Of a DNA stretch of 64,000 nt, positions 39,685-42,761 are shown one piece after another. Source of the stretch: Rhodospirillales bacterium (lineage in GTDB: Bacteria > Pseudomonadota > Alphaproteobacteria > Rhodospirillales > Thalassospiraceae); the NCBI GenBank assembly GCA_019634165.1, contig JAHQVT010000003.1:1-64000 (forward strand). Reading direction: 5' to 3'. Made by a program: the position numbers and the translations under genes. Numbering within the stretch: position 1 is the first letter of the stretch; each line of letters begins with the position of its first letter. The notes under the pieces were generated by a model. That model did no database searches and was not told the DNA's origin. It saw only the letters and a program-made list of their open reading frames with translations.

Positions 39685-41421
39685 ATGTTTGATAAGCTAA
39701 AGAAAGAGCACATCGTCGCGGGCGACGATTTCAACCGCTGGAAGGTGCCGCCAGCATCCATTGCCATCCATCTTTGCATCGGTTCTGTTTATGCTTGGAG
39801 TATCTTCAACCCGCCACTGATCAAGGAATTCGGTGTGGTTGCTGCAAGCTCGGGCGACTGGGGTCTGCAATCCGTTGTCTGGATATTCTCTGTTGCCATC
39901 GTAAGCCTTGGCCTTGCCGCGGCCTTCGGGGGCAAATGGCTTGAAGAAGTTGGTCCGCGTATGGTCGGCGTTGTCGCCGCATTCTGCTGGGGCGGTGGTT
40001 TCATCATCGGCGGGCTTGGGATTGCCACCCATGAATTGTGGTTGGTTTATCTTGGATATGGTGTGATTGGCGGGGCCGGGCTTGGTCTTGGCTATGTCTC
40101 TCCGGTATCAACCCTTATTCGCTGGTTCCCGGATCGGCGCGGCATGGCGACCGGCATGGCTATTATGGGCTTTGGCGGTGGTGCGATGATCGCAACCCCG
40201 ATCAAAGAAGCCCTGCTGTCTGCTTTCTACAAAGTGCCAGAATATCTTGGTCCGGAAAGTGCGGTTAATCTTGTTACCGAAGGTGGCAAGCGCATGGCAG
40301 AAGTCGGCGGCCAGATGGTCGAAGTCGTCGTTGCCGGTGCCGCACAGGTTGCATCCGCCCCGGTTCCAATTGAAGAAGGCGTTTACATTGCAGGTACGGG
40401 TAACACCGGTGCTGCATCGACCTTCTTTACCCTTGGCGTTGCCTATTTCATCGTCATGATCATTGCGTCATTCTCGTACCGTGTACCGCGTGAAGGTTGG
40501 TTGCCAAAAGGTTGGACACCGCCGACCGCAGATACCGCGTCCAAACGCATGATCACACAGAAAAACGTTCACATTGATCAGGCGCTTAAAACGCCGCAAT
40601 TCTATCTGATCTGGATTGTGTTGTGCTTTAACGTTACCGCAGGCATCGGGGTGATTGGCGTTGCCAAAACCATGATGTTTGAAATCTTTGGAACGACATT
40701 GCCATTGGTGGTCAATTCGGCCTTTGCGGCGACATATGTGTTTATGATTTCGGTCTTTAACATGTGTGGTCGGTTCTTCTGGGCATCGATTTCTGATTAT
40801 ATCGGGCGCAAGAACACCTATTACTGCTTCTTTGTTCTGGGCATCGCACTTTATCTGTCGATCCCGTTCTCAGCAGAACAGGTCAGCATCAATCCGGCCG
40901 TCACCTATCTGGTGATGTTCTATGCCGCGACCATGATCATCTTCACGATGTATGGCGGCGGTTTTGCAACGATCCCGGCTTATCTTGCCGATATCTTTGG
41001 CACCAAATATGTCGGTGGTATTCATGGTCGTCTTTTGACGGCGTGGAGTACTGCAGGTGTACTTGGTCCGTTGGCAATCACCCAGTTGCGTCAAACCTCG
41101 GTCACGAATTCGATCCGGGATTTGGCCGCAAACGTTGATCCAGCAGCCTTCCAGGCAAAGTTTGGTGCAGGCTTAGAACAGCTTGACCAATTGGTAGCGG
41201 CTAAAACCGTGACCATTGGGCGTTTGATGGAAATTGCACCGGCGGGGACGGTCGATCCGACCTCAAGCCTGTATAACACCACCATGTATGCCATGGCGGC
41301 CCTGTTGGCGATTGCTTTGGTTGCGAACAAAATGGTCCGTCCTATCCATGACAAACACTACATGGAAACCAAGGAAAGTGATGGAACGGCAACCGGGCAC
41401 GAAGCATCGTCCAAAGCCTAA
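39685..41421 (+). CDS. OFA family (oxalate/formate antiporter-like) MFS transporter
   Basis: 578 aa, 12-TM MFS; SIAIHLCIGSVYAWSIFNPPL, ISDYIGRKNTYYCFF; SD GGAGGA before ATG 39685. Confidence 0.88.
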   Translation: MFDKLKKEHIVAGDDFNRWKVPPASIAIHLCIGSVYAWSIFNPPLIKEFGVVAASSGDWGLQSVVWIFSVAIVSLGLAAAFGGKWLEEVGPRMVGVVAAFCWGGGFIIGGLGIATHELWLVYLGYGVIGGAGLGLGYVSPVSTLIRWFPDRRGMATGMAIMGFGGGAMIATPIKEALLSAFYKVPEYLGPESAVNLVTEGGKRMAEVGGQMVEVVVAGAAQVASAPVPIEEGVYIAGTGNTGAASTFFTLGVAYFIVMIIASFSYRVPREGWLPKGWTPPTADTASKRMITQKNVHIDQALKTPQFYLIWIVLCFNVTAGIGVIGVAKTMMFEIFGTTLPLVVNSAFAATYVFMISVFNMCGRFFWASISDYIGRKNTYYCFFVLGIALYLSIPFSAEQVSINPAVTYLVMFYAATMIIFTMYGGGFATIPAYLADIFGTKYVGGIHGRLLTAWSTAGVLGPLAITQLRQTSVTNSIRDLAANVDPAAFQAKFGAGLEQLDQLVAAKTVTIGRLMEIAPAGTVDPTSSLYNTTMYAMAALLAIALVANKMVRPIHDKHYMETKESDGTATGHEASSKA

Positions 41422-41430
41422 TATCGCTTA

Positions 41431-41613
41431 GGGCGCTGGTCAGCACACCCCTGATCGGCGCCCGATTGGTTGGCGAAGTCTGTCCGCCAACCAAACACAG
41501 GCATGATTGGGACAATCATGCCTTGGGTCCGGGCTTAGTTCATCCGGTTTGGACCCGTGTTCTGTTGCAGGAATAACCTTTTGGCGTGTAAGGGCAATCG
41601 GTTATCCTGCAAC
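41431..41613. repeat. Cluster of five consecutive inverted repeats (candidate structured RNA or REP-like cluster)
   Basis: Stems 41431-41463, 41466-41494, 41499-41523, 41525-41556, 41564-41613, arms checked by eye. Confidence 0.6.
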
Positions 41614-41733
41614 TGGAGCACTCTCCCCAACCTGGTGTTTTCCCAATAATAAGCGGCTCCTAAGAAAGACCGTGACCACCGCCACAGCAAAGCATCCCAA
41701 AACCGATGCCTCATACGCCATGCTGGAAAGAAG

Positions 41734-42627
41734 ATGATCGATAAACTCGAAATGTTTATGGTGCTGGCACGACAGCAGCATTTTGGCCATGCCGCAGAAG
41801 AATGCGGCGTGACACAGCCAACGCTGTCAAGTGCGCTGCGTCAACTTGAAGACCATCTTGGTGTTGTTCTTGTGCGGCGTGGATCACGCTATCAAGGATT
41901 AACCCCCGAAGGTGAACGTGTTCTGGAATGGGCACGCCACATTGTCGGCAGTACGCGTTCCATGCGCGATGAAATGCGGGCAATGCGGTTTGGTTTGACC
42001 GGCCAAGTTCAGATTGCGGTGATCCCGACCGCCCTTTCGATGGTGCACGAACTGACCACACCGTTTCGTGAAAAGCACCCAGACGTCACTTTTGCTATAT
42101 TGTCACGCACGTCGAGTGAAATTCAGGCGCTGCTTGATGATCTGCAAATTGATGTTGGCATTACCTATCTTGATAACGAACCGCTTGGGCGGGTGACATC
42201 AATCCCGCTTTATTACGAACGCTATCATCTGGTAACCTCAAACTTCGACGATATTGGTGATCGCGAAAGCATCACCTGGCGTGAGGCTGCTGAATTTCCG
42301 TTGTGTTTGCTGACCCCCGATATGCAAAACCGACGGATCATTAATCAGCATTTGAAAGAAGCCGGGGCACGGATCAGTCCCACGCTTGAAAGTGATTCAA
42401 TGATTGCCCTGTTTACCCATGTTCATACGGGAAACTGGGCCAGCATCATGCCGGTTAAAATGATCAAGGAATTCAGCATGGATGACCGGGTAAAATCCAT
42501 CCCGATCATTGAACCCGATGCAACCCACATGGTGGGGATGATCGCCGCCAAACGTGAACCCGCAACACCGGTTGTCTCGGCTTTGCTCAAACAGGCAAAG
42601 CTTTTATCGGAACTTGAAACGGCGTGA
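41734..42627 (+). CDS. LysR family transcriptional regulator (formate dehydrogenase cluster-linked)
   Basis: N-terminal HTH (MIDKLEMFMVLARQQHFGHAAEECGVTQPTLSSALRQLEDHLGVVLVRR); directly upstream of the fds operon. Confidence 0.92.
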   Translation: MIDKLEMFMVLARQQHFGHAAEECGVTQPTLSSALRQLEDHLGVVLVRRGSRYQGLTPEGERVLEWARHIVGSTRSMRDEMRAMRFGLTGQVQIAVIPTALSMVHELTTPFREKHPDVTFAILSRTSSEIQALLDDLQIDVGITYLDNEPLGRVTSIPLYYERYHLVTSNFDDIGDRESITWREAAEFPLCLLTPDMQNRRIINQHLKEAGARISPTLESDSMIALFTHVHTGNWASIMPVKMIKEFSMDDRVKSIPIIEPDATHMVGMIAAKREPATPVVSALLKQAKLLSELETA

Positions 42628-42761
42628 TAGCAGCTTGATAGGTTTACGCTATCGCGTAACGGGACGGCTTTATTGAACAGGCGATCTATATCGCTGACAC
42701 TACTTAGAAGAACAATAGAAGAATAAAAAATTACATAGACTGCTTAGTGAGAGAGGCTGGC

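Follow-up and report, generated by a model that had tools for sequence, protein, structure and literature searches.

What is the role of five adjacent inverted repeats lying between a transporter gene and a regulator gene of a Rhodospirillales bacterium (family Thalassospiraceae)? The repeats had been pointed out in a first-pass annotation of the window, i.e., the whole stretch of 64,000 nucleotides of contig JAHQVT010000003.1 that was analysed, and had been taken there for a candidate structured RNA. They lie in the lysR–transporter intergenic gap, which measures 315 nt (41419–41733, the transporter stop codon counted in). The features of the locus are as follows.

39685–41421, + strand: MFS transporter gene, OFA-like; the curated match is an L-lactate transporter
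41431–41463, + strand: H1, 13-bp hairpin (two G-U pairs) directly after the transporter stop codon; proposed transporter 3'-UTR module
41466–41494, + strand: H2, 9–10 bp hairpin; proposed transporter 3'-UTR module
41499–41523, + strand: H3, 11-bp hairpin; proposed transporter 3'-UTR module
41525–41556, + strand: H4, 11-bp hairpin, stem GGGUCCGGGCU/GGUUUGGACCC, loop GUUCAUCC; proposed transporter 3'-UTR module
41557–41621, + strand: H5, hairpin of 21 bp that has an inner stem and a single conserved bulge; proposed lysR-leader module
41615–41642, + strand: possible H6, in which the right outer arm of H5, GGAGCACT, pairs with the downstream GGTGTTTT; mostly G-U in the window
41734–42627, + strand: LysR-family regulator gene, preceding fdsG, fdsB and fdsA
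42635–42680, + strand: conserved operator of LysR type, consisting of a GATAG-N7-CTATC dyad with its flank; lies upstream of fdsG

Organization of the locus

All five stems were found where the first-pass annotation had placed them. The extents given for H1–H3 were correct; the stem of H4 has 11 bp rather than 6, and H5 runs over 41557–41621 instead of 41564–41613, a span that includes the outer stem GUGUUCU/GGAGCAC. For H2, 10 complementary bp are present at the DNA level and 9 in the predicted fold. The stem sequences differ from one another, so the array is not a tandem repeat, as had been stated.

The transporter had been called 'OFA'. The only NCBIfam model above its cut-off was that of the L-lactate MFS transporter, the scores against the oxalate/formate models being below cut-off. 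Judging from these matches, the protein may be described as OFA only in a loose sense. The fdsGBA genes that follow lysR are those of an NAD-linked formate dehydrogenase. The operator at 42635–42680 provides a ready candidate binding site for the regulator of this formate operon, and its flank (GCGTAACGGGA...TTTATTGAAC) is recognisable also in Stappia and Roseibium. Just before lysR (41720–41737), the window has 14 additional bases relative to the examined relatives. The addition creates a five-codon frame, ATG CTG GAA AGA AGA TGA, which overlaps the lysR start codon and contains GGAAAG, a ribosome-binding-like motif.

Folding of the array

The array (41425–41620) folded at −104.1 kcal/mol, compared with a mean of −67.7 kcal/mol (sd 4.5) for its shuffles (z = −8.05), and none of the 200 shuffles was as stable as the native + strand. 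When H1–H5 were folded singly, z ranged from −2.4 to −7.0. The energy of the array was also below that of all 20,478 windows of 190 nt taken from 464 kb of the same genome, a comparison in which the array was folded as 196 nt and the compositions differed. The most stable of these windows (−101.9 kcal/mol) was a stretch with two hairpins. At least five stems of at least 8 bp per 190 nt were present in 31 of the 20,478 windows, with energies of about −49 to −79 kcal/mol; the five-stem density of the array is rare in its genome but not unique. When 125 intergenic regions were surveyed, the best others reached z = −8.2 and were for the most part terminators with a U-tail or a single long palindrome; the array was absent from the listed top regions of this survey, its own z coming from the separate shuffle test. 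Elsewhere in the genome, a very long intergenic palindrome with a stem of ~40 bp was seen (L156, 980–1080; G000:C6 near 51000), possibly a small mobile element.

Conservation and compensatory changes

Homologous gaps were compared from 24 other Thalassospira genomes and a few named Thalassospira records. The 12 species having all five hairpins were aligned without reference to structure, and the consensus fold of this alignment consisted of exactly the same five hairpins. Compensatory changes were found in 20 of the 62 base pairs, and 97.7% of the cells paired; the compared sequences being related, these counts are not of independent events. None of 500 shuffles reached the pairing and compensation values of the alignment. 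When the partners were slid by one base, pairing fell to about 40%. This control retains the relatedness of the sequences.

H1 alone was compared in 18 sequences, where 10 of its 12 aligned pairs showed compensatory changes. The corresponding figures for the consensus pairs in the 12 species were 5/7 for H2, 2/7 for H3 and 5/12 for H4. The loop GUUCAUCC of H4 was invariant across the 12 aligned species; like ACCC in H1, it was kept though the stems vary. In one clade (L003, L005, L011, L013, L015), a pairing is possible between CCTGAC, 3' of the transporter stop, and GTCAGG, 3' of H3. Such a pairing, which does not occur in the species of the window, would enclose H1–H3 in a multi-branched structure.

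Of 25 Thalassospira gaps, 24 folded more stably as the + strand than as the complement, and the shuffle test of the array gave z = −6.5 on the − strand, against the −8.05 of the + strand. With G-U pairs disallowed in the fold, G.U mismatches in the helices occupied 15 distinct contexts and A.C mismatches 6 (p 0.08). The fold bias and the G.U excess together point to an RNA made in the transporter-to-lysR direction.

It is very probable that the region 41431–41621 is a selected structured RNA. The compensatory changes, the one-strand bias and the genus-wide conservation strongly support this proposal of the first-pass annotation; covariation and conservation in relatives, on which the proposal had in part been made to depend, are both present in Thalassospira.

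Distribution of H1–H4 and H5

The sequences of H1–H4 drift fast, the number of hairpins differs among species, and H4 is missing in some clades. In the core of H5, 10 bp are invariant across 20 distinct sequences. The bulged base of H5, which makes the hairpin asymmetric, is retained, the outer stem varies in a compensated fashion, and changes in the right arm retain G-U pairs on the + strand. In the genome G002, the transporter gave no match and the gene preceding lysR is, by its sequence, a short-chain dehydrogenase. There, H1–H4 are absent and lysR is still closely preceded by an intact H5 core. H1–H4 thus follow the transporter, and the core of H5 stays with lysR; this separation of the modules by natural deletion comes from a single genome.

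A covariance model of H5 detected one locus per genome, with a significant E, in 23 of 29 Thalassospira genomes. Outside the genus, no H5 was detected in 297 order-sample genomes or in 385 class-sample genomes with fast filters that could lose weak distant matches; among these about 680 sampled genomes, H5 is known only from Thalassospira. A diverged clade (L022–L024, L032, L034) has a related hairpin of 13–15 bp at the H5 position, even where lysR is not followed by fds genes. In G020, the left arm of H5 is lost and GGTTATCCTG is retained. In other bacteria, the ortholog of the transporter is for the most part followed by an ordinary single hairpin, often U-tailed, or by none; in Stappia and Roseibium, one terminator-like hairpin occupies the same gap. 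Hence, the array is a feature of Thalassospira.

A REP/BIME element or other dispersed repeat was rejected, as H5 has a single locus per genome and no strong second genomic copy. By BLAST, H1–H4 were matched at this locus alone. The inverted TTGCAGG pattern was found at four genomic places, two or more of which are intragenic, and H5 was not accepted as the member of a dispersed family; L170, which resembles it in an intergenic region, was put down to coincidence. A perfect 17-bp hairpin with the GTTGCAGG/CCTGCAAC ends of H5 (L164, 1725–1770; G000:C10 near 301728) lies downstream of a ureidoglycolate-hydrolase-like gene and is probably a coincidence too. The Rfam scan that had been suggested as a check was run with strict and lenient covariance-model searches; no relevant family was obtained, and none reached the gathering score.

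Proposed function and its alternatives

We propose that 41431–41621 is a two-module intercistronic mRNA structure, with H1–H4 as a decay-blocking 3'-UTR array and H5 as an element in the leader of lysR that is recognised by its sequence, and we put the chances of this reading at about even. No U-tract follows any of H1–H5 on the + strand (the only match, at H3, is on the − strand), and because of this absence RNA polymerase would be expected to read through the array into lysR. After cleavage, the downstream RNA would be degraded in the 3'-to-5' direction until the exonuclease was halted by the stacked H1–H4 (41431–41556). These hairpins would be an array in the 3'-UTR of the transporter mRNA, possibly terminating as well. 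By halting the exonuclease, they would let the transporter message outlive and outnumber that of lysR. That H1–H4 vary in number suits a generic exonuclease block, and the invariant core of H5 suits specific recognition. H5 (41557–41621) is probably a protein-binding or ribonuclease-processing site, and a factor binding or cleaving it would determine where the lysR message begins, how stable it is or how well it is translated. Of the roles suggested earlier, a 3'-UTR structure appears to fit H1–H4 and a leader of the LysR/fds operon appears to fit H5, each for its own part of the array.

It is possible, and to us doubtful, that H1–H4 are instead a tandem array of U-less terminators, acting alone or with Rho, and that lysR has a promoter of its own, situated at H5 or beyond it. 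H1 is GC-rich, the array comes directly after the stop codon, and the same gap of Stappia and Roseibium has its single terminator-like hairpin. On its own, H1 would look like a terminator hairpin, and H1 is the one for which a role as OFA terminator, suggested earlier for one hairpin, is possible. But the + strand U-tract is missing from every hairpin, for which reason a canonical intrinsic terminator was rejected, and no promoter-like match was found on the + strand in 41380–41760. Moreover, the stretch from H5 to lysR shows little conservation (mean identity of 49% directly after H5) and is only about 45 nt long in L022–L024, so that a conserved promoter would have little space there. A lysR promoter of an unfamiliar type at or after H5 could take the place of the read-through assumed in the decay-blocking model.

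The invariant arms of the H5 core could equally be a DNA site. According to this explanation, which we regard as unlikely, two inverted copies of GGTTATCCTGCA would be the operator of a transcription factor controlling lysR, the hairpin being incidental. Both arms are invariant over 10 pairs with a variable spacer, their spacing is about three turns of the DNA helix, and GGTTATCCTG persists in G020 despite the loss of the left arm. The compensated outer stem, the right-arm G-U pairs kept on the + strand and the asymmetric bulge argue against it, as does the lack of a strong second H5 copy in the genome. A LysR-type operator in particular was rejected for H5, because the T-N11-A interrupted dyad sits between lysR and fdsG and is absent from H5.

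A small RNA, stand-alone or derived from the 3'-UTR, that acts in trans through the conserved loops is quite improbable. The loops of H4 and H1 are indeed kept while the stems vary, but the strongest conservation lies in the paired sequence of H5, and the hairpin number is variable, with H4 missing in some clades. The candidates compared from the main text of PMC6413936, a small-RNA ('miRNA') study of nine Thalassospira species (its Table 2 and a few of Tables 4–5), included none within 4 mismatches of the orthologous intergenic regions. With no such match, no promoter-like match and no U-tailed terminator on the + strand, the stand-alone ncRNA of the first-pass annotation is not borne out.

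We give little credence to a two-state switch in the lysR leader, where the arm 41615–41621 would have two alternative partners, the 5' arm of H5 and the downstream segment (H6): in most species both pairings of the arm are possible, and the three segments co-vary between clades (GUUCU/AGAAC/GUGUUC vs GUCCU/AGGAC/GUGUCC), but roughly one sequence in three has a weak H6 or none, and neither a masked start site nor a terminator was identified. H6 was not made part of the main reading, because H5 wins at equilibrium (about 0.9–1.0) in nearly all tested species and the independent events are few. It is likewise very unlikely that H5 and H6 make up a genus-specific leader of the fds regulator, in which a protein or ligand on the H5 core switches the shared arm and so sets lysR expression.

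Comparison with known systems

If H1–H4 do block decay, they show how one transcript can serve both a transporter needed in large amounts and a regulator that is scarce. That the H5 core never varies points to a partner in Thalassospira that binds it sequence-specifically. The array also makes a clean comparative case, being an intercistronic RNA with many compensatory changes and with a deletion, that of G002, separating its two modules.

REP/BIME elements are intergenic palindromic sequences found after genes, and in this the array is like them; it differs in that H5 is single-copy and the stems are unlike each other. With an intrinsic U-tailed terminator the array shares a GC-rich hairpin shortly after a stop codon, whereas it consists of five adjacent hairpins and has no + strand U-tract.

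A closer likeness is to hairpins that protect mRNA. In the puf operon of Rhodobacter, an intercistronic hairpin region shields the upstream segment (Klug 1987 and Chen 1988, as cited in PMC11354728 and PMC5927463). As far as these citing accounts go, puf is, like the array, an alphaproteobacterial hairpin region between genes whose products are needed in unequal amounts. The genes and sequences are different, and the array is likened to puf by structure and not by decay.

In E. coli, U-less hairpins, consecutive ones included, shield upstream operon segments from 3'–5' exonucleases (Dar and Sorek 2018, PMC5927463). The array differs from these intra-operon hairpins in having up to five adjacent hairpins, one of them sequence-invariant, and in being known from its sequence rather than from decay. 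As in the puf, malEF and menBCE type of protective hairpin, it is stable, lacks U-tracts, lies between two co-directional genes and has a structure conserved by selection in relatives; in menBCE, the protective hairpins are consecutive, as they are here (PMC5927463).
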